DNA of 47,299 bases from Bacteroidetes bacterium GWF2_29_10 (GTDB taxonomy: Bacteria > Bacteroidota > Bacteroidia > Bacteroidales > GWE2-29-8), in the NCBI GenBank assembly GCA_001768555.1, contig MEOD01000108.1, positions 1 through 47,299 of the forward strand. The letters are read 5' to 3'. The number at the start of each line of letters is the position of its first letter. Position 1 is the first letter of the stretch. Below are positions 2,722 through 37,574 of the stretch, one piece after another. The position numbers and the translations under genes were made by a program. The notes beneath the pieces are model-generated. The model ran no database searches. It was not told the DNA's origin and saw only the letters and a program-made list of their open reading frames with translations.

Positions 2722-3639
2722 ATGATTTTAGAGGCTTTAAAGTGGAGAATAGTATATCTTAAATTGTCGAAATTTTATTTTTATTGGTTTTTTAGACAAT
2801 TGTTTGATTGCAGTAAAAATGAACAAGTAAATAGCATTAGCGTTGTTGTTACTGGACGAAACGATAATTATGGAGGAGAGTTTGCCAAACGTTTACAGAC
2901 TACATTAGATTGGAATTTGAGTAAACTGCCTAATCCAGAATTGATTTATGTGGAATGGAATAGAATAAAAGATGTAGCAAGTGATTGCGAATGGATAAGT
3001 CAACGTTATAAAAATTCAAAATGTTATGTTATTGGAGAAGATATTCACGAATCAATTGCAACAAATCCTAAAATAAAAATGCTAGAATATCATGCAAAGA
3101 ATGTTGGTATTAGAAAGGCAAAGAACGAATGGATTCTTCTTATTAACGCTGATGTTTTTTTAGGATTGGATATTGCTAAAAATATAAAAATGCTGAATAA
3201 GAATACTATTTATGGTTCGCATTACAAAAATATTGAATGGGATGGCAACCCTATTAACGAGAAGCATGTTAATGACAAATCACTTATTAAAGCTTTTTTT
3301 GCTACGAATAAGTATTTGGAGAGTGTTGTTGGTAATTTTATTTTAACACATAAAAACAATTGGCTTAATGCTACGGGATATGATGAAAGTTTAACTATGG
3401 TTAGACTTGGTGTTGATACAAATGGCTTGAAGCAATTGCTTTATACTGGTTTAAAGACAATGGTTCTTGGACATCATTATCATCTTGATCATAAGGAATC
3501 TGCATTATATGGAAAAAATGATACTCATGGGGAACATGATTTTGATAATATTCCCTATAAAAATCCGGAAAGTTGGGGAATGACAAATTATAAAGAAGTA
3601 AGTATAGGAAATAATATATGGGAATTAAAAAAAATTTAG
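2722..3639 (+). CDS. GT-A type (GT2-like) glycosyltransferase
   Basis: Probably a sugar transferase with a GT-A fold, acting in glycan or polysaccharide synthesis at the cytoplasmic membrane. The N-terminus (about 1-30) is aromatic and basic and could attach peripherally to the membrane. It is followed by SVVVTGRNDNYGGEF (about 40-55), a typical first strand of family 2 glycosyltransferases. INADVFLG near residue 140 sits where the DxD-like metal and nucleotide-sugar motif is expected. A late GHHYHLDH cluster may hold further metal ligands. The stop lies inside the start of the epimerase gene (22-bp overlap), which implies translational coupling. Donor and acceptor cannot be told from sequence. 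Confidence 0.7.
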   Translation: MILEALKWRIVYLKLSKFYFYWFFRQLFDCSKNEQVNSISVVVTGRNDNYGGEFAKRLQTTLDWNLSKLPNPELIYVEWNRIKDVASDCEWISQRYKNSKCYVIGEDIHESIATNPKIKMLEYHAKNVGIRKAKNEWILLINADVFLGLDIAKNIKMLNKNTIYGSHYKNIEWDGNPINEKHVNDKSLIKAFFATNKYLESVVGNFILTHKNNWLNATGYDESLTMVRLGVDTNGLKQLLYTGLKTMVLGHHYHLDHKESALYGKNDTHGEHDFDNIPYKNPESWGMTNYKEVSIGNNIWELKKI

Positions 3640-4418
3640 TACTAGGAGGCTCTGGAACTATTGGTTCTGCATTATGCCGAAAACTTTTAGAGGTTGGAGA
3701 AGAAGTTATTAATTTGGATATAAAAGTCGGATATGATTTAAGAAATTATAACCTTTCTAAGTATTCTGATGTTGATTATGTGTGGTTTTTTGCGTGGGAA
3801 GTTGGAGGAGCAAGGTTTCTTTATGATTCCAAGTATCAATTACAAATGCTAGTCAATAATACTTTGTTATGTGAAAATATATTTAGCTTTCTAGATAGAA
3901 GTAAAGTACCTTTTATGTTTGCTTCATCACAATTAATAAGTCCAGAAATGGCTTATGGGACAACAAAATTATTGGGAGAGAAATGGACACAGTTATTAAA
4001 TGGTAAAATTGTTCGTTTTTGGAATGTTTATAGTTGGGAAGAACCAGCTTTGAAATCTCATTTTATTCCGGATATTGTATATAAAGGATTAAAGAATTCT
4101 AAGATAGAGCTAATGACAAGTGGAGAAGAGGAGCGCCAACTTGTGTATGTGGATGATTGCATTAATAATTTATTAAAAGCACGAACTTTAAAGGAAAATA
4201 ACATTCATATTACTAATGGTAATTGGATAAAGATTGCCGATTTGGCTAATATGATTGGTAAAAAACTTGGCATTGAAGTTATATTGGGTGATAAAAAAGG
4301 TTATGATTGCAAAATAGATCCAAATGAAACTTATAAGCTATTTGAATTTAATACATCAGTAGAACAAGGTCTTGATATTATAATCAATAAAGCTAAAGAA
4401 TATCTTGTTATAAAATAG
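3618..4418 (+). CDS. NAD-dependent epimerase/dehydratase (SDR family)
   Basis: An extended short-chain dehydrogenase/reductase that probably modifies a nucleotide sugar. The N-terminal Rossmann motif is LVLGGSGTIGSALC (GxxGxxG, residues about 8-20). YGTTK near residue 115 provides the catalytic YxxxK. RQLVYVDDCINNLL near residue 170 is the usual conserved VxDxxxA region of these enzymes. At 266 residues it is somewhat shorter than typical UDP-sugar epimerases (about 310), so the C-terminal substrate domain is reduced. The start overlaps the end of the glycosyltransferase gene, suggesting the two make and transfer one sugar. The exact reaction is not assignable. Confidence 0.8.
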   Translation: MGIKKNLVLGGSGTIGSALCRKLLEVGEEVINLDIKVGYDLRNYNLSKYSDVDYVWFFAWEVGGARFLYDSKYQLQMLVNNTLLCENIFSFLDRSKVPFMFASSQLISPEMAYGTTKLLGEKWTQLLNGKIVRFWNVYSWEEPALKSHFIPDIVYKGLKNSKIELMTSGEEERQLVYVDDCINNLLKARTLKENNIHITNGNWIKIADLANMIGKKLGIEVILGDKKGYDCKIDPNETYKLFEFNTSVEQGLDIIINKAKEYLVIK

Positions 4419-4703
4419 ATTTACAAAAAAATAGAATTATAACAAAAACAGTAAAATTATTTCAGGATTACGTGAATTAAAAACAAAGTGAAAAACAAAC
4501 TTTTTTTAATGTTTTCAAGAAGCATAAAATTATTAATGCTTATATCACATTAGTATATAGAAAAAAAACATTAGGAATAAATATCGGGGTATTAATTAAA
4601 ATGATACATATTGTTGAACATTTTCGTTTTTACATTGTATTTAAAAAGTTAAAATGGTATATTTTTTGATTAGCAAATTAATGTTAATTAAAAAAAAATT
4701 ACT

Positions 4704-13050: not shown

Positions 13051-13467
13051 TTTTGTTTGCATTGTTGTTGTTAATTATCAATATTTCAAATTAATAGCGT
13101 TATAAACAATAATATTCATTTAAAATATACTACAAATATTTACCAAAAGGTTGCTCTTTCGTGGCTTTGATGTGTGGTGGGATTATGCATTGTCATAAGC
13201 TTCGCCAGTGGTTATTATAATTTTATCTCTAACGGGATTTGGAATGTTTTCTTCAATAAAGAGTGAGACCGTTGCAATAATCACGATTCAATAATTTTGT
13301 TATTAAATCTCACTAACTTTTTAAATTTTGTTAATGATTTGAGACCATTGCAAGGCAAAACACTAAAAATAATCGAACACACATTTCCATTTAGATAATC
13401 CTGAAATAAGTTTACAGCCTTTTTCCTTAATTCTGTTTTTTTATGTAAACCTATTTTAGGACGAGAC

Positions 13468-13522
13468 ACCTTTATAGTACCTTTTATGTGCCTTTATAGT
13501 ACCTTTCATGTACCTTTCATGT
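13468..13522 (+). repeat. 11-bp tandem array 1 (5 units)
   Basis: Five consecutive 11-bp units are visible: ACCTTTATAGT, ACCTTTTATGT, GCCTTTATAGT, ACCTTTCATGT, ACCTTTCATGT. The period equals about one helical turn. The consensus is related to the reverse complement of array 2 (13585-13639), so the two arrays form a long imperfect inverted repeat with about 62 nt between them. Confidence 0.85.
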
Positions 13523-13584
13523 ACAGTAATAGAATTTTCACACTAAATAACTTGGGTTTAATCAAAATCAATTTTTGATATAGA

Positions 13585-13639
13585 GCACATATAAAGCACA
13601 TATACAGTTCATATAGAGTACATATAAAGCACATATACA
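13585..13639 (-). repeat. 11-bp tandem array 2 (5 units), inverted relative to array 1
   Basis: Five units are visible: GCACATATAAA, GCACATATACA, GTTCATATAGA, GTACATATAAA, GCACATATACA, followed by a partial GTACTTTAAT. The related repeat at 26.7 kb has only one such unit (near GAGCATATATACAG), so this array expanded in one copy or contracted in the other. Confidence 0.85.
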
Positions 13640-13797
13640 GTACTTTAATCCCACCTTTAACTCTGGATAATCAACCTTAAATTCACATTTCATGCTAATA
13701 ATCAAATGATTAACCGTCCAAATTAAATCATATTCACTTTTTTGTTATTTTTAAGCATTCACACCCTTCGCTTTAATTATCAATACATTAACTAAAA

Positions 13798-13817
13798 TAA
13801 CACAATATGATAAAATT
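13798..13817 (+). repeat. 20-bp direct repeat, left copy
   Basis: TAACACAATATGATAAAATT is identical to 14318-14337. The two copies bracket the transposase remnant. They are far longer than the duplications made by known HUH transposases, so the origin is unclear. Confidence 0.7.
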
Positions 13818-13829
13818 GATAATAACGAA

Positions 13830-14251
13830 ATGGTATTGAATGAATATGGGCATATTGCATATAATGAGTGGGTGAAAACATCAGAGATAAGGGATAACGT
13901 TACATTAGGCACATTTGTTATAATGCCAAATCATATACACGGGATTATTATATTGGAAACAAACGGTAGGGGCGTATCGCATACGCCCAAAAATATCACA
14001 AAACAGGATGACGCCGTAACCGACTACAATCAACATCCAAAACCATTGGTTCAATTATACGTGGTTATAAATCAGTGGTAACAAAAATAATAAAATCATT
14101 AAATGTTAATTGTATTGTTTGGCAACGAAATTATTATGAACATATAATTAGAAATGATAATTCGTATTATAAAATTGTGGAATACATAGAAAATAATCCA
14201 GAACGTTGGTATGAAGATAAATTTTATTGTGGTAATAATTATGATATTTAA
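13830..14251 (+). pseudogene. Broken REP-associated tyrosine transposase (RAYT/IS200-like)
   Basis: Degenerate Y1 (HUH) transposase of the RAYT type. The first frame (13830-14081) carries the HUH motif in FVIMPNHIHGIIIL. The second half continues in the -1 frame from about 14040 to the stop at 14249-14251 (IGSIIRGYKSVVTKIIKSL, VWQRNYYEHIIRND, YIENNPERW), all typical of RAYT C-termini. Adding one A to the TCCAAAAC run at 14036-14043 restores one frame. The usual N-terminus (about 60 residues) is missing, so the gene is both truncated and frameshifted. It sits beside its probable hairpin substrates and at the edge of the reverse transcriptase island. Confidence 0.85.
13962..14004 (+). repeat. 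REP-like hairpin repeat inside the transposase remnant
   Basis: A 43-bp segment identical to 14250-14292. Its core GGGCGTATCGCATACGCCC forms an 8-bp stem with a CGC loop, a REP-style palindrome. Here it is read in frame as residues NGRGVSHTPKNI of the transposase remnant. It is far more GC-rich than the surroundings. Confidence 0.85.
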
Positions 14252-14292
14252 CGGTAGGGGCGTATCGCATACGCCCAAAAATATCACAAAAC
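14250..14292 (+). repeat. REP-like hairpin repeat at the transposase 3' end
   Basis: Exact second copy of the 43-bp hairpin element, 288 bp downstream of the first and overlapping the last two bases of the transposase stop codon. RAYT enzymes act on REP palindromes that typically flank their genes, which fits this placement. Confidence 0.85.
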
Positions 14293-14317
14293 TGTTAATA
14301 TTCACTTTCTATTATTT

Positions 14318-14337
14318 TAACACAATATGATAAAATT
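14318..14337 (+). repeat. 20-bp direct repeat, right copy
   Basis: Identical to 13798-13817; see the left copy. The two enclose 500 bp containing the transposase remnant and both hairpins. Confidence 0.7.
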
Positions 14338-14494
14338 AATCATGCTTTATACCTTTTTCTATAAATTCGATTCCCATATAACAACAAATTTAGCAAGCAA
14401 AAAGCGAATAACAAAAACACGTTTTTTTTAATCTACAAAATGATTATTTTAGATTCATATTTTAAATATATATTTTTTGTAATTTAAAAATTTG

Positions 14495-14711: not shown

Positions 14712-16217
14712 ATGAAAAGTATAATTGAATTAAACGAAAATGAAGCAAGACAATTCTTTTTAAAAGAAAAAAATTATGTGAATTTCGACCTTCCTGTTTA
14801 TTTTTCGTTTCAAAATTTATTAAACCTGATAGATGAAAACCTAAAAGAGAAAAAGCTCTCGGATTATAAAAATAATAATCCAAGGGATTTTGATGATATA
14901 AATTATTTCATTTTAAATAATAAGGATGGAAAATATGCTTGGCGTCAATTTCAGTTAATAAATCCTGCAATTTATGTTTCTCTAGTTCATTGTATTACAT
15001 ATAAGGAGAATTGGGAATTAATAAAGAGAAAATTCCGTGACTATCAAATAAATGACAAAATAGAATGCAAAAGTTTGCCTATGGTATCTAAAAGTGAAGG
15101 AAAAACAGATAAAGAATCTCAGATTTTTACTTGGTGGCAAATGATTGAACAGAAATCAATTACTCTTTCGCTTGATTATCATTACATGCTTCAAACAGAT
15201 ATTACTGATTGCTATGGTTCAATTTATACACATTCGATTAGCTGGGCTATACATGGTAAACTTGAAGCTAAAAAAAAGAAAAATAGGACTAAAAATTCTT
15301 TAATTGGTGTCGCAATTGATAATCATTTACAAGACATGAGTTATGGACAAACCAATGGTATTCCTCAGGGAAGTACTCTAATGGATTTAATTGCGGAAAT
15401 AGTTCTTGGATATGTAGATGAATTACTTACAATAAAGATAGTTAAATTGGGTATTTTAGATTACCGAATTCTTCGTTATAGAGATGATTATAGAATCTTC
15501 ACAAATAACCCCTTTAATGCCGCACAAATAACAAAAGCATTATCTGAAATACTTTCCGATATGGGATTAAAACTTAATATTGGTAAAACGGAAGCCTCAG
15601 ATAATGTTATAAAAAGTTCTTTAAAGCCAGATAAACGCTATTGGATTACTAATAGACGAATTGCTGAGAATAAACAAAAATGGTTAATACAATTGTTTTT
15701 ATTGTCTGAACAATTTCCGAATTCAGGGACTTTAGACACTCAAATGAAGTTTTTTTTAGAAGTTTTGAAAAAAAGTAAAAAAGATGATTCAAACATAGAA
15801 TCTTTGATAAGTTTAGTAACAGAGATAGCCTATCGAAATCCAAGAGTTGTTCCAACTTCAATAATGATACTATCGCTTTTAATAGAAAAGATAACAGATA
15901 AAGATAACAAAAAACAAATATTAAAAAAGATACATAGTAAATTTCAACAAATTCCTAATTCGACGTTTTTGAAAATATGGTTACAAAGACTGACTTTTAA
16001 ACTTGATACTTCAATTATTTATGACGAACTCATTTGTCAACTGATTATAAATAATGATATTCAGTTGTGGAATTTTGATTGGTTGAATGATAGTTTTAAA
16101 CAAAAAATTAAAAATAAATCCATCATTGTACAATCAGAAGTACAAACATTAAAAGCTATAGTAACAAATAAAGAAATAGATAATATGATTGTAAATAATG
16201 CATATAATTATGAATAG
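14712..16217 (+). CDS. Abi/UG-type (DRT-like) reverse transcriptase
   Basis: An RNA-directed DNA polymerase of the kind found in anti-phage systems (abortive infection and 'unknown group' RTs). Motifs in order: MLQTDITDCYGSIYTHSIS (about 160-175, catalytic Asp about 163, with the aromatic 'SIYTHSI.WA.HGK' stretch), GIPQGSTLMDLIAE (216-229), and RYRDDYRIF (YxDD at 256-259, second catalytic Asp pair). KLNIGKTE follows as the thumb-side motif. After about residue 300 there is an all-helical C-terminal region of about 200 residues with no recognisable domain, as in several UG/Abi RTs. There is no intron maturase, integrase or protease domain, arguing against group II introns and retrotransposons. 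I cannot assign a DRT subtype. It begins a four-gene co-directional run and is followed after 16 bp by an endonuclease gene. Confidence 0.85.
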   Translation: MKSIIELNENEARQFFLKEKNYVNFDLPVYFSFQNLLNLIDENLKEKKLSDYKNNNPRDFDDINYFILNNKDGKYAWRQFQLINPAIYVSLVHCITYKENWELIKRKFRDYQINDKIECKSLPMVSKSEGKTDKESQIFTWWQMIEQKSITLSLDYHYMLQTDITDCYGSIYTHSISWAIHGKLEAKKKKNRTKNSLIGVAIDNHLQDMSYGQTNGIPQGSTLMDLIAEIVLGYVDELLTIKIVKLGILDYRILRYRDDYRIFTNNPFNAAQITKALSEILSDMGLKLNIGKTEASDNVIKSSLKPDKRYWITNRRIAENKQKWLIQLFLLSEQFPNSGTLDTQMKFFLEVLKKSKKDDSNIESLISLVTEIAYRNPRVVPTSIMILSLLIEKITDKDNKKQILKKIHSKFQQIPNSTFLKIWLQRLTFKLDTSIIYDELICQLIINNDIQLWNFDWLNDSFKQKIKNKSIIVQSEVQTLKAIVTNKEIDNMIVNNAYNYE

Positions 16218-16233
16218 AAAAATAAGATAGGTA

Positions 16234-17138
16234 ATGAATATAGATAAAAAACTATCACCACAAGCAATAATCGCTTTGAAGGAAGCCTTACCTATTATCT
16301 TTTGGAAAAAAGATGATTTGCTAGACTTTATTAAGTTGGTTATTGATAATAAATCAATTGTTGGAACAATTAATTGGAATGTTACAAAAAGAGAAAGCAT
16401 CAAAGAATTGATTGAAAGAATGCTAAACAGACAGGATATTTATAAAAATGACTTAATGAATTTGCTTCTTGCAGTTACGGACTTTGATGATTTTAGCAAC
16501 CTGAAATATTGGGATGAGGATGGGACAAAGACAAAACGAGCAAAAGAAGCTGTCAATAAATTAAGAACTCATACAAAGGGTTATATTCAAATTACTCAAG
16601 AGCAAGAAGAAGCAAGACAACGAAAGATTGAAAACGAAAAAAAAATTAAAATAAATAAATCACTTAGTGAAGAATTGGAAATTTTAAAAAAAAAGTTTAA
16701 TAAGCTTGCTATTACAAAGGATGTCCAAAACGAGGGTTTGAACTTGAAAAATTCCTGTATGATTTATTTTTATTATATGATTTAGAGCCTAAAGGTTCAT
16801 TTAAAAATTATGGAGAACAAATTGATGGTGCCTTCACATTTCAAGGAACTGACTATTTACTTGAAGCAAAATGGAAACAGAAAGTTGGGAGAAGTGATTT
16901 AGCATCGTTTTGTTATAAAGTTGAAACTAAATTTAAAACAGCAGTTGGATTAATGGTGACAATAGATGGAGTGACAAGTGAGGCAATTTCAGCAGATTTT
17001 AAATCAATTATTATTATGGACGTGATTGACATCATTTCTATATTAGATGGTAGAATAAGTTTAACAGACTTGTTGTTTAAGAAAAGGAGAAAAGCAATCG
17101 AAAGTGGAAAAATATATTTGAATGTTAATGAATTGTAA
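16234..17138 (+). pseudogene. Frameshifted PD-(D/E)xK restriction-endonuclease-like protein
   Basis: The first frame (16234-16785) encodes a helical N-terminal region (about 1-130, LSPQAIIALKEALPIIFWKK) and a charged coiled-coil-like linker (about 130-165). The nuclease domain continues in the -1 frame from about 16730 to the stop at 17136-17138. It reads RGFELEKFLYDLF, then EQIDGAFTFQGTDYLLEAKW, the PD-(D/E)xK core (E, then ID, then EAK). Adding one A to the TCCAAAAC run at 16724-16731 gives DVQKRGFELEKF in one frame and a protein of about 300 residues. So either the gene is newly broken or the base is missing from the assembly; a programmed frameshift is less likely because the site is a poor slippery sequence in this phase. 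It starts 16 bp after the reverse transcriptase stop. Confidence 0.8.
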
Positions 17139-17183: not shown

Positions 17184-17253
17184 AAGGGATTCAAGTGTTG
17201 TAGCACGCTCAAACTTTAGTGTAGGTGGACAGAGAATTGCCCCGAAATCCCTT
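17184..17253. repeat. Inverted repeat between the two nuclease genes
   Basis: AAGGGATT (17184-17191) and AATCCCTT (17246-17253) form an 8-bp perfect stem enclosing 54 nt. The enclosed sequence has a smaller GTG/CAC hairpin (GTGTTGTAGCAC near 17194). It could be a recombination site, a regulatory RNA structure or an old element end. It argues against the GTG start at 17225 for the next gene. Confidence 0.5.
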
Positions 17254-17302
17254 ACTGTATATAGCCTCAACCATTGTCAGTAATAGTGAGACCCCGAAAG
17301 CA

Positions 17303-18457
17303 ATGAAAGAGCTTTTTGACAACAAGCACAGAATAGATTTAGATCCTTCTCAGCACAACGAGAATACTTTTGACTATTATGATCGTTCAGCTAGGAAAGA
17401 TGTTTCTAATGTCCGAAAGTTATTAAATGAGTGGTTTTTAAACTATCCCGAAACGGAACAATTCGAATTAAAGAGAAGATTCAAAAAAACATTTACAAGT
17501 TCGTTCTATGAACTTTTTATTTATACATTATTTAAACAACAAGGATTTGAAATAACAATTCATCCTGACATTCCGAACACTAATAAGCATCCTGATTTTT
17601 TATTAAGAAAAAATGATTCCGAATTTTATTTAGAAGCTAAAGTAGCAAGAGATAAATCGAAAGCTGAAGAAGCATTAGAAAAAAGAATAAATCAACTTTA
17701 TGATTCACTTGACAAAATAAAGTCACCAAACTTTTTTTTAAAAATAGATGAGTTAATAATAAAAACAACCAATCAGCCTTCAACAAAACAAGTAATAAAT
17801 AAAATTGAAACAGAAGTTGCAAAACATAATTTTGACACATTAACCGAACAACCACAACAGTCTGGCTTTGAGAATATGGTGAAAATCATTCACGATGATG
17901 ATAACTTAAAATTAATTGTTTCATTAATCCCTAAAACTCCTACCGGAGGAACAATTGAAGGAAGGGCAATAAGAATATTTCCTTTAGAATCATTTTGTGG
18001 AGGTTCACAAGAATCTATTAAAGACTCATTCACAAGGAAGGCTAAAAGATATGGAGAACTTGATAAACCTTATTTCATCTGCATTAACGCCATTGGAATA
18101 CTTGGAGAAGGGGATTTTGATGTAGAAAATGCACTTTGGGGTTCACTTGCCTGGACTTGGTCAACAGACCCAAATAATAGAGATGAAAAATGGGGAAGAG
18201 GCAGAGATGGAATCTTTTTAGGAAAAAAAGGAGCAAGATGTAAAAACGTTAGCGGAGTTCTTGTAACAAAGGTGAGAGAGTATAATTTTGCGACTGCGAC
18301 ATATTGGTTTGCCAAACATCCTTTTTCAGACAATGAAGCGAATTTTGAATTATTTGATTTGGCATATTATTTTGTTGAGTCAGGTAAAATCTTAAAATAC
18401 AAAGGGAAAACATTTGGTGAAATCCTAAATATAGAATCAACGTGGTTAAACGACTAA
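17303..18457 (+). CDS. Predicted PD-(D/E)xK-type nuclease, defence-island protein
   Basis: An unrecognised 384-residue protein with a likely nuclease core: HPDFLL (D98) followed by FYLEAKVA (E111 and K113), preceded by a helical ELFIYTLFKQQGFEITIHP segment. This order matches PD-(D/E)xK enzymes. The rest (about 140-384) has no motif I know, but conserved-looking patches are present (GGTIEGRAIRIFP, PYFICINAIG, ALWGSLAW, DGIFLGKKG). An in-frame GTG at 17225 would add 26 residues, but it lies inside an inverted repeat, so I prefer the ATG. It is the third gene of the run and is followed 30 bp later by the HEPN-like gene. Substrate unknown. Confidence 0.65.
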   Translation: MKELFDNKHRIDLDPSQHNENTFDYYDRSARKDVSNVRKLLNEWFLNYPETEQFELKRRFKKTFTSSFYELFIYTLFKQQGFEITIHPDIPNTNKHPDFLLRKNDSEFYLEAKVARDKSKAEEALEKRINQLYDSLDKIKSPNFFLKIDELIIKTTNQPSTKQVINKIETEVAKHNFDTLTEQPQQSGFENMVKIIHDDDNLKLIVSLIPKTPTGGTIEGRAIRIFPLESFCGGSQESIKDSFTRKAKRYGELDKPYFICINAIGILGEGDFDVENALWGSLAWTWSTDPNNRDEKWGRGRDGIFLGKKGARCKNVSGVLVTKVREYNFATATYWFAKHPFSDNEANFELFDLAYYFVESGKILKYKGKTFGEILNIESTWLND

Positions 18458-20340: not shown

Positions 20341-21774
20341 ATGATTACATTTATTTGTTCGATTCTATTACTCATTGCAGGTTATTTTGTATATGGGAAA
20401 ATTACAGAGAAAATATTCGTTATAGATTCACAACGTATTACTCCTGCTTATAGCAAGCAAGATGGGGTTGATTATGTCCCTCTAAAGCCTTTTAATATAT
20501 TTATGATTCAATTTTTAAATATTGCAGGTTTAGGACCTATTTTTGGAGCTATAATGGGTGCTAAATACGGAACTTCTTCATTTTTATGGATTGTTTTTGG
20601 GTGTATTTTTGCAGGAGCTGTTCACGATTATTTTTCTGGAATGATTTCTCTAAGACATAATGGGGAAAGTTTACCTGAAATACATGGTAAATATTTAGGT
20701 AACGGAGTAAAACAATTTATGCGCGTTTTTATGGTTGTGTTAATGATTTTGGTTGGAGTTGTTTTTGTGTTGGGGCCTGCAGGGTTATTAGCAAAACTAA
20801 CCCCTAATTACTTTAATACTATTTTTTGGATTGTCGTAATTTTTGCATATTACATTGTTGCAACATTGCTTCCTATAGATAAGCTTATAGGTAAAATATA
20901 TCCTATTTTTGGATTTTGCTTATTGTTTATGGCATTAGGAATATTGCTTTCCATTTTTATAAATCAACCTTACTTGCCAGAAGTTTGGGAAGGGTTACAA
21001 AACAATTATCCTCAAATAGAAAATAGGCCTTTATTCCCTATGCTTTTTATTTCTATAGCATGCGGAGCAATATCAGGATTTCATGCGACTCAATCTCCTT
21101 TAATGGCTCGTTGTATGACTAATGAAAAACAAGGTCGTCCTATATTTTTTGGAGCAATGATTGCTGAAGGTATAGTTGCGCTAATTTGGGCTGCTGCAGC
21201 TTCTTATTTCTTTCATAGAAATGGAATGGGTGAAAATAATCCTGTTGTAATAATTGATAGCATTACAAAAGAATGGTTGGGTACTATTGGTGCAATATTA
21301 GCTATTTTTGGTGTTATTGCAGCTCCTATTACATCTGGAGATACATCCTTCCGTTCAGCACGATTAATTATTGCTGATTTTTTGCACTATGATCAAAAAC
21401 CTATTCTTAAACGTTTTATAATAGCAATTCCTCTTTTTATTGCAGGAATAGGAATTCTTATATATAGCATTTATGATAAAAATGGCTTTGACACTATTTG
21501 GAGTTATTTTGCTTGGGCAAATCAAGCATTATCTGCTGTAACTCTTTGGGCAATAACTGTATTTTTGTATCATAAAATGAAGTTCTACTTTATAACTATT
21601 ATTCCTGCTCTTTTTATGACAATGGTTACAACAACCTACATTCTTATTGCACCAGAAGGGTTAGGGTTAACTCATATTTTTGCATACATTGGAGGATTTA
21701 TAATTACTTGTATAATATTCTTACTTTTTATATATCATACCATAATTTACACGAAAAACACTCCCCTTAATTGA
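20341..21774 (+). CDS. cstA: CstA-family carbon starvation protein / peptide or pyruvate transporter
   Basis: Polytopic inner-membrane protein of the CstA family, whose members import pyruvate or peptides, classically on carbon limitation. Family features seen: the N-terminal helix GYFVYGKITEKIF, the PLKPFNIFMIQFLNIAGLGP stretch, GCIFAGAVHDYFSGMISLR, and CGAISGFHATQSPLMARCM. About 13 membrane helices can be counted. At 477 residues it is the short form, lacking the long C-terminal part of the 700-residue enterobacterial protein. It stands alone behind its own promoter. Substrate not decidable from sequence. Confidence 0.92.
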   Translation: MITFICSILLLIAGYFVYGKITEKIFVIDSQRITPAYSKQDGVDYVPLKPFNIFMIQFLNIAGLGPIFGAIMGAKYGTSSFLWIVFGCIFAGAVHDYFSGMISLRHNGESLPEIHGKYLGNGVKQFMRVFMVVLMILVGVVFVLGPAGLLAKLTPNYFNTIFWIVVIFAYYIVATLLPIDKLIGKIYPIFGFCLLFMALGILLSIFINQPYLPEVWEGLQNNYPQIENRPLFPMLFISIACGAISGFHATQSPLMARCMTNEKQGRPIFFGAMIAEGIVALIWAAAASYFFHRNGMGENNPVVIIDSITKEWLGTIGAILAIFGVIAAPITSGDTSFRSARLIIADFLHYDQKPILKRFIIAIPLFIAGIGILIYSIYDKNGFDTIWSYFAWANQALSAVTLWAITVFLYHKMKFYFITIIPALFMTMVTTTYILIAPEGLGLTHIFAYIGGFIITCIIFLLFIYHTIIYTKNTPLN

Positions 21775-26421: not shown

Positions 26422-27007
26422 ACCAAAATTCAAAAAAAGAGTATTATTTTAATTGAGACCCTACATTTCTTTCAAATGTTTTTTTTTACGAGCTCATGAG
26501 ATAAATATTAATATTTTTACGTTTCTTGGAAACTCTAAAAAACGTATCGCTCTTCGCTTTGTTTTTGATTCAAATAATTCTGAAATAAGTTTACTGTCTT
26601 TTTTCATAATTCTATTTTTTGTGTAACCCAATTTTAGAACAAGATAGTTTTTTTTGTCAATAATCCTTTTTTAAATAATCAAAATTATTTTTTTTGATAT
26701 AGAGCATATATACAGTACTTTAATCTAACTTTTAACTCTATATAACCAATCTTAAAATTGCATTTTATGCTAATAATCAAACAATTAACCGCTCAAATTA
26801 AACCATGTTTATTTTTTTTGTTATTTCAAAATACGCACAATCTTCGCTTTAATTATCAGCATATTTTTGTTCTCCTCAAAGGTAATAATAATTTGAGTAA
26901 ATATTAAACCTTTCTTTTAAATCGTTTAGGACACTATTTATTTATAAAACATTTATTTACTTTTTTTAGAGAAAAAAATATTTATATGTGTTTTCAAATA
27001 AATATTA
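26422..27007. other. Intergenic region holding the second dispersed-repeat copy
   Basis: No gene was seen. The left end starts with a TTGAGACCC motif (about 26453) like those at 13.27, 13.34 and 17.29 kb. The centre is repeat copy B; the rest is AT-rich with no clear structure. Confidence 0.55.
26570..26870 (+). repeat. Dispersed intergenic repeat, copy B
   Basis: Same order and orientation as 13395-13800, with shared blocks CTGAAATAAGTTTAC, TTTTGATATAGAGCA, ACAGTACTTTAATC, ATGCTAATAATCAAA and CTTCGCTTTAATTATCA. It lacks array 1 and has only one 11-bp unit where copy A has array 2. No transposase remnant follows it. Confidence 0.75.
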
Positions 27008-36017: not shown

Positions 36018-37574
36018 TTATTGTTTAATAAATTTAGTGTAGTTATTGTCTGTTTTTAGAAAATATATTCCATTTTTGAGATTAGAAATGTTTATTATTG
36101 CTTTATTGTTGTTTGTTTTCATTTTTTCAGAATATATTTCTTTTCCTAAGGTGTTATATATTGAATATTTTTGGTTGTTATTATTGCTTTCTATTGTAAT
36201 TGTTTTTGTAGCTGGATTTGGAAATATTTTCATGTCACTTGTGTTTGATGCTAACTCTGATATCAATGTTCCAAGTTGTTTGTAATGTAGAGTCGTTTTA
36301 TATCCATATGCATTCCAAATATTGTTTTCATAATTGTAAGAACATGTTAAGTCAATGTTTGCTTTTTGCCATTGAGAGTTTTTCCATTTTTCATAATTAA
36401 CCATTAAACAATTTCCATAATCATCAAAAGAGTAAGTATATTTTTCACTATTTGTCCAATTGGTGTTTAACCACATTTCTGTAATGGAACTAGCTATATT
36501 GTTATTTGCATCGTAATTTATATTTTGTCTTCCATAATTTACCCAAACGGAATCTGTCCATATTTTGGAAATAAGGTTTATCAATAGGTTATTTTCGTTA
36601 TAAGTGAAAACATTTTGTCCATAATTTACCCAAACGGAATCTGTCCATATTTTGGAGCTAAGATTTATCAATAGGTTATTTTCATTATAAGTGTAAACGT
36701 CTTGTTCGTAATTTAACCACATTGTATCACCCCATAATTCAATTATTAGGTTAGTCATATTGTTGCTTGAGTCAAATGCATAATTATATTTTTCACTGTT
36801 TGTCCAAACAGAATCTGTCCATAATTTAAAAATTAGGGTTCTAGGATTTTTGATTGTATCATAAGTGAATTCTATTTTGTATTTATTTTCCCAAATATTG
36901 TTTGCACATTCTTCATACAATTGACTAGTTTGGTTTCCACTTGCATCATAGGTATATGTCATTTTATAAGAATTGTACCAATTCGAACCTTCCCAGTATT
37001 CTCTAAGTAAAATTGTTTTGTTATTATTAACATCAAAAGAGGATGTTTCTCTTTCAATGTTAGTCCAAGTAGAATTTATCCATTTTTCATACGACCAGCT
37101 AGTTTGTTGCCCATCTGTATTGTATGTCATTGTATGTCTTTCGTTATTTAGCCAAGCATTGTCTGTCCATATTTCCCAAATAGAACTTGTGTTGTTTCCA
37201 TTTGCATCATAGCTATGAGTGCCTTTTTGGTCGTTTTTCCAATAGGAGTTTTCATATATTTCCCATAAAGAGTTTATTTCGTTTCCTTTTGAATCGTACA
37301 CCATAGAGTATCTTGAAGAACCAGATGTTGTATATTCTATTACAGTATCAGGGTAAAATTTGGCAATTATTTCCTTTTCTTGTTTTAGTTTGTTGTTTTT
37401 ATTGTATTGCTTTGTTTGTTTATATTTTTCTTTGAAAGAAATATTCGCTTTTGGTTTTATTTTTTGTTCTATTATTTGTTTTGGTGTTTTTAAAATATCA
37501 TTTACAAATTTGTTTTGACCTGTTATTGTAAAAGCATAAGTTGCAATTAAAATTAAGAGTAATAGTTTTTTCAT
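36018..37574 (-). CDS. Repeat-rich secreted protein with T9SS type A sorting domain
   Basis: A signal peptide (LLLLILIATYAFTITGQ) starts a 518-residue protein made mostly of about ten degenerate repeats of 29-36 residues (pattern W.N.EKYTYSFD..GN.T....E.W.DS.W; about 85-420), resembling Rhs/YD-like beta strands. The last 75 residues form a T9SS type A domain (IFPNPATKTITIESN, YNTLGKEIYSEKM, LKNGIYFLKTDNNYTKFIKQ), so the protein should be exported through the T9SS and kept on the cell surface. Two repeats are 92% identical at DNA level. Ligand unknown. Confidence 0.82.
   Translation of the reverse strand: MKKLLLLILIATYAFTITGQNKFVNDILKTPKQIIEQKIKPKANISFKEKYKQTKQYNKNNKLKQEKEIIAKFYPDTVIEYTTSGSSRYSMVYDSKGNEINSLWEIYENSYWKNDQKGTHSYDANGNNTSSIWEIWTDNAWLNNERHTMTYNTDGQQTSWSYEKWINSTWTNIERETSSFDVNNNKTILLREYWEGSNWYNSYKMTYTYDASGNQTSQLYEECANNIWENKYKIEFTYDTIKNPRTLIFKLWTDSVWTNSEKYNYAFDSSNNMTNLIIELWGDTMWLNYEQDVYTYNENNLLINLSSKIWTDSVWVNYGQNVFTYNENNLLINLISKIWTDSVWVNYGRQNINYDANNNIASSITEMWLNTNWTNSEKYTYSFDDYGNCLMVNYEKWKNSQWQKANIDLTCSYNYENNIWNAYGYKTTLHYKQLGTLISELASNTSDMKIFPNPATKTITIESNNNNQKYSIYNTLGKEIYSEKMKTNNNKAIINISNLKNGIYFLKTDNNYTKFIKQ
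36532..36705 (-). repeat. 87-bp tandem duplication within the T9SS cargo gene
   Basis: Two adjacent 87-bp (29-codon) units, 36532-36618 and 36619-36705, differ at 7 positions by my count, far more alike than the other repeats of the gene. This points to recent duplication or gene conversion. Confidence 0.85.

Follow-up and report, generated by a model that had tools for sequence, protein, structure and literature searches.

Conserved 11-bp Arrays Within Two Dispersed Intergenic Repeat Families of a Bacteroidales Genome as Putative Phased Protein-Binding Sites

Two neighboring tandem arrays on a 47,299-nt stretch of Bacteroidetes bacterium GWF2_29_10 (contig MEOD01000108.1; the whole stretch is called the window below) are internal parts of two different dispersed intergenic repeat families, named here A and B. 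Both are real 11-bp arrays, and in each family the array, together with the palindrome or palindrome arm beside it, is the best-conserved stretch. From this observed anatomy we infer, and give an even chance, that the repeats have disseminated helically phased, putative protein-binding sites which are kept by constraint. The guess of a hairpin and of unstable arrays, made in a preliminary description of the window, is thus replaced by a testable claim, namely that the array is kept and not the mobile ends.

Anatomy of the Locus

The features of the locus are as follows (positions in the window).

13265–13352, plus strand: fragment of another dispersed repeat, with an IS5-type terminal motif twice, GAGACCGTTGCA (13265) and GAGACCATTGCA (13341); exact matches, with dispersed homologues
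13400–13460, no strand: imperfect inverted repeat, the terminus-like palindrome of family A, CCTGAAATAAGTTTACA (13400–13416) and TGTAAACCTATTTTAGG (13444–13460)
13470–13524, plus strand: array A, five 11-bp units, CTTTATAGTAC CTTTTATGTGC CTTTATAGTAC CTTTCATGTAC CTTTCATGTAC
13546–13823, plus strand: central and right part of a family B MITE-like repeat, the left end with its TIR missing
13561–13579, no strand: small palindrome ATCAAAATCAATTTTTGAT immediately 5' of array B, between-copy identity 0.85–0.91
13578–13643, plus strand: array B, six 11-bp units, ATATAGAGCAC ATATAAAGCAC ATATACAGTTC ATATAGAGTAC ATATAAAGCAC ATATACAGTAC
13824–14343, plus strand: insertion into the B repeat, with a broken REP-associated tyrosine transposase gene
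14344–14415, plus strand: B repeat resumed past the insertion (the stretch 14341–14415 can be aligned with the right portion of B copies elsewhere)
26568–26858, plus strand: second composite copy, family A palindrome (26568–26644) followed by B repeat (26697–26858)

Both arrays obtain clear TRF scores (86 for array A and 121 for array B). Five units each had been described initially; this is exact for the first array (13468–13522 in the register used then), whereas the second comprises six. The same description saw the second array as related to the reverse complement of the first, a relation that turns out to be weak. Aligned over their whole length without gaps, the arrays reach 64% identity in the inverted orientation (p = 0.03) and 58% in the direct one (p = 0.13), whereas the unit profiles, compared in all rotations, favor the direct register (p = 0.016 versus p = 0.17 for the inverted one). 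The direct register runs through an AG(T/C)AC end common to the units of both arrays, which look inverted because GTAC is its own complement.

The window locus consists of nested remains of mobile elements; that the two arrays are paired is a local matter. Fragments of family A and family B are joined at ~13546, a junction that arose by nested insertion and truncation. The insertion at 13824–14343 is bounded by a near-identical 26-bp direct repeat (13798–13823 and 14318–14343) and contains two identical palindromes, at 13965 and 14253; its transposase gene matches NF047646, below the curated cut-off, in two pieces (E = 4.7e-4 and 5.5e-8) that are collinear but differ in frame. A motif close to GAGACCGTTGCA is described in PMC4596501 as the TIR of ISPg1/ISPg4 (IS5 family) and of MITEs in Porphyromonas gingivalis. 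The composite copy at 26.7 kb, formerly credited with a single unit, has two B units (ATATAGAGCAT ATATACAGTAC, from 26697) and no A array. A further family A palindrome lies in reverse orientation at 4403–4470, where it overlaps the end of the gene at 3618–4418.

Two Dispersed Repeat Families

A search of the own genome, a 2.8-Mb draft in 110 contigs, with the array region gave 53 matches, which form a left set (to ~13547) and a right set (from ~13546), and most copies belong to one set or the other and not to both. Each family has roughly 20–30 dispersed, intergenic copies. Family A combines an array of TTACTTCGCC/CTAAAGTTACC 11-bp units with, after a spacer, the palindrome CCTGAAATAAGTTTACA...TGTAAACCTATTTTAGGAC and array A. 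In many copies a third array, of CTTTAAAGTAC-like units, lies beyond, and all three arrays have similar 11-mers. The palindromic right terminus of family A is clear in several copies, and in several copies of the own genome the repeat stops there, with unique sequence beyond; its left end is indistinct. Family B is MITE-like, about 625–645 bp long, and consists of the TIR CCCARATTGTCCATTAGA, a leader, the palindrome ATCAAAATCAATTTTTGAT, array B, a conserved tail and the opposite TIR. The CCCARATTGTCCATTAGA TIRs form inverted pairs at C2:22819–23463, C14:38085–38710 and C95:20801–21436, and are missing from many copies, that of the window included. A query with the B flank alone returned 32 matches; with elements of about 640 bp, family B is multicopy, dispersed and short.

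No long open frame was seen between the genes that flank family B copies. The aligned TIR-bearing B copies are flanked by no clear short direct repeat that would be a target-site duplication, and no transposase, as expected of an autonomous partner, was found beside the other TIR matches of the genome, many of which are at contig ends. An exact match to the TIR CCCARATTGTCCATTAGA is absent from 98 relatives, Rfam yielded no family match, the B repeat was not found in plasmids, and the array patterns were not found in viral contigs. Besides the B type (CCCAGATTGTCCATT), similarly built terminal-repeat types occur in the own genome at L114, L127 and L129 (CCCAGATTACGCATT, CCCAGATTCCGCATT and CCCAGATTAGTCATT), and all of them apparently belong to a wider set of related miniature elements.

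The number of units is nearly fixed. Array A has five units in most copies and sometimes six, the sixth often being a degenerate flank, while array B mostly has five or six, with extremes of one and ~13; its outliers are 10 units at C42, ~13 at C83 and one to three in truncated copies. The order of unit variants is moreover common to different copies, and the arrays have therefore been inherited as blocks and are not fast-changing. The earlier suggestion that they are unstable does not agree with this, and the short 26.7-kb copy on which it was founded is one of the few truncated ones.

Conservation of the Arrays

Among B copies, between-copy identity amounts to 0.93 in the array and 0.91 in the preceding palindrome, compared to 0.65–0.81 elsewhere. 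Among A copies, array A reaches 0.925 and the adjoining right palindrome arm 0.885, compared to 0.49–0.78 elsewhere. Because the first query had contained the arrays themselves, copies were re-collected with flank-only queries. For family B, this gave 23 copies with 100 bases upstream, from which the 19 with four or more clean units were chosen. In these 19 copies the array identity is 0.925, with 71% of columns invariant, versus 0.789, 0.745 and 0.749 for the search flank (Mann–Whitney p = 4e-7); the remaining four of the 23 have one to three units, which still mostly agree with the consensus. The identity of the left TIR is 0.56, far below that of the array, and conservation for transposition is therefore unlikely.

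In family A, the array is intact in most flank-found copies with sequence past the palindrome. It has decayed at L272 and at the L284/L295 locus, and about five flank-found copies end at the palindrome without an array; it is therefore not indispensable. Within the B unit, variation is concentrated at positions 6, 9 and 10, where 13 of 18 columns are variable versus 5 of 48 elsewhere (Fisher p = 2e-6).

The preliminary description had also offered a protein on one DNA face, a proposal that is strengthened by an array conservation above that of the flanks and by the position-specific tolerance, with the binder itself being putative. Direct repeats at one-turn spacing, conservation above the flanks and set tolerant positions would be the trace expected of a row of proteins on one face. 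Each array may accordingly represent a cluster of five to six binding sites, one helical turn apart, on which a putative DNA-binding protein (nucleoid-associated or a regulator) would be seated repeatedly on the same face. The repeats would have scattered such clusters across the genome, mainly into gaps upstream of genes or between divergent ones, and purifying selection by the host would hold the unit while the rest of the copy, TIRs included, decays. Were a protein found on the arrays, this would reveal a route for transposable elements to equip bacterial genomes throughout with helically phased binding platforms, and a chromosome-organizing or regulatory protein would be gained for a phylum with few known ones.

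Alternative Explanations

The likeness of the arrays could also be maintained by conversion between copies. Families A and B may, with appreciable probability though short of an even chance, be ordinary MITEs with a functionless internal minisatellite, the likeness between arrays stemming from gene conversion or recent homogenization. Such elements are known in P. gingivalis (BrickBuilt), some turnover is evident from the few expanded (C42, C83) and shrunk arrays, and some A arrays have decayed. Yet conversion or turnover inside one array moves variants without slowing the rate of divergence between copies, and identity falls sharply, from 0.93 to 0.78, at the right edge of the array. The focus of variation on certain unit positions also speaks against a functionless array, although shuffled older variants could contribute to it. 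The arrays might instead be subterminal transposase-binding repeats that serve transposition, in line with their position inside a TIR-bounded element. This is improbable, since the TIRs lag far behind the array in conservation, and the many truncated copies, though immobile, still hold clean arrays.

Still less probable is a role as Rho-utilization-like, C-rich and G-poor stretches for transcription termination: array A on its CTTT strand, like several other 11-mers of related genomes, is rich in pyrimidines, but the B units are not poor in G, and the repeats lie mostly upstream of the neighboring genes. The least credible explanation is that arrays A and B form the two sides of a single long stem, the hairpin or cruciform originally envisaged. 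In its favor, the single-strand fold of the A–B region is moderately better than that of shuffled sequence and no more (z = –1.8 as DNA, –2.2 and –2.5 as RNA). Against it, the units agree better in direct than in inverted register, and the arrays normally occur apart, in separate repeat families. Among the copies read, the window is the sole case of directly adjacent full A and B arrays; L020 has both in opposite orientation with several hundred bases between them, and at L025 an A array is accompanied, ~0.6 kb further on, by a remnant of B with one unit. Since the two arrays belong to separate families, the arrangement as inverted arrays or a hairpin is a local accident, and their separate occurrence largely refutes the hairpin.

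Comparison With Known Systems

BrickBuilt of P. gingivalis, a minisatellite within a MITE with IS5-type TIRs, is the closest precedent (PMC4596501). BrickBuilt (MITEPgRS/MITE464) is described there with ~19 copies and units of 23 and 41 bp that number 1–23, with strong length variation. Common to both systems are the tandem direct repeats in a TIR-bounded, multicopy intergenic element, the order of leader, array and tail, which is also found in B copies, and the IS5 type of TIR, which likewise occurs close to the copy in the window. Judged by description, families A and B differ by their 11-bp units in near-fixed number, and the family B TIR is another sequence. Conservation of the array above the TIR, as found here, is not described for BrickBuilt in the available part of PMC4596501. 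The two families are thus of a like kind, with another unit length, a near-fixed unit number and an array-centered conservation.

The parC site of plasmid R1 offers an analogy for function: it consists of clusters of 11-bp direct repeats that are bound by ParR, for which at least two repeats are required (PMC9426499). Our arrays have in common with it short clusters of 11-bp direct repeats at one-helical-turn spacing, but they are located in mobile repeats at many chromosomal sites. By this analogy the arrays may work like ParR/parC sites. Among the genes that flank the window copy, no ParM or ParR was found.

The BOX elements of Streptococcus pneumoniae have a modular build with an internal repeated unit, which is longer, variable in number and not known to show 11-bp phasing. 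The families described here resemble them as modular dispersed elements that hold an internal repeated unit and are nested with other repeats; clustering and nesting have been reported for BOX elements (PMC10969869). The Correia element of Neisseria is a MITE with a functional IHF site that affects the neighboring operon (PMC10969869). It provides a parallel for a MITE bearing the site of a nucleoid protein, with a single IHF site in place of a phased array.

Wider Distribution

Intergenic tandem arrays were compared in sampled stretches of the own genome, of a genome from another genus of the same family, and of other Bacteroidota outside the family. A base period of 11 was found in 15 of 51 arrays of the two genera (7 of 29 in the own genome and 8 of 22 in the other, mostly with other units) versus 1 of 28 outside the family (Fisher p = 0.007), counts that treat dispersed copies of one array as independent and include one or two marginal calls in the own genome. 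An order-wide enrichment was rejected, as only 1 of 23 arrays in other families of the order has this period (0 of 5 in other orders); in this sample, the enrichment is limited to the family. In the other genus, L150:1330–1584 holds two 11-bp arrays with different units, ~50 bp apart, in a window-like arrangement.

The family A palindrome is widespread in the order, its right arm being present in 34 of the 393 genomes; usually, no 11-bp array follows it. An order-wide link between this palindrome and an 11-bp array was likewise dismissed, as among 37 termini only L053 is clear and L054 weak.

Beyond the order, a query of 2.5 B units against 84,980 genomes matched a Chitinophagaceae MAG. Eight dispersed matches to the array region were found there, four of which are alike in little beyond the array; these arrays have a B-type 11-mer, and their flanks are unrelated. 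Given the possible number of 11-bp arrays in such a collection, the match could be a coincidence. The most extensive version of our proposal is that mobile repeats spread phased arrays of five to six sites for a novel putative protein, that the host retains the arrays as the mobile parts degrade, and that, by the Chitinophagaceae 11-mer, protein and site would be common to several orders; we regard this version as unlikely. In the same MAG (L215–L224), several copies have, behind the ATATAGAGYAC arrays, a second stretch in 11-bp phase with CCTCCGTATTG-like units.

Neighboring Genes

The genes that flank the repeat copies are oriented away from the repeat in most cases, and the repeats are found mostly in gaps upstream of genes or between divergent ones. 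They may affect promoters, but the greater length of upstream gaps could alone explain this bias. Scanned on both sides, the neighbors of the window copy encode TPR/SH3, VWA and BatD proteins and an AbiP2-like reverse transcriptase. A tie between the arrays and this reverse transcriptase, suggested by its proximity, was considered and rejected, as equal arrays are present at dozens of other, unannotated places.

The reverse transcriptase itself (14712–16217) belongs to the AbiP2 group of defense-associated reverse transcriptases (PADLOC, E = 7e-191) and is directly followed by a gene for 183 aa (16234–16785) that belongs to none of the known families. With a weak nearby PADLOC match to PD-T7-5 (17225–18457, E = 2e-11), it perhaps forms a small defense region. 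Further on, a 477-aa gene (20341–21774) partially matches the CstA pyruvate/proton symporter in two stretches, the best of which covers profile positions 40–180 of 701, and is possibly split or truncated. An 87-bp tandem repeat of 2.2 copies with 90% match (36531–36719) lies inside the minus-strand gene at 36018–37574.
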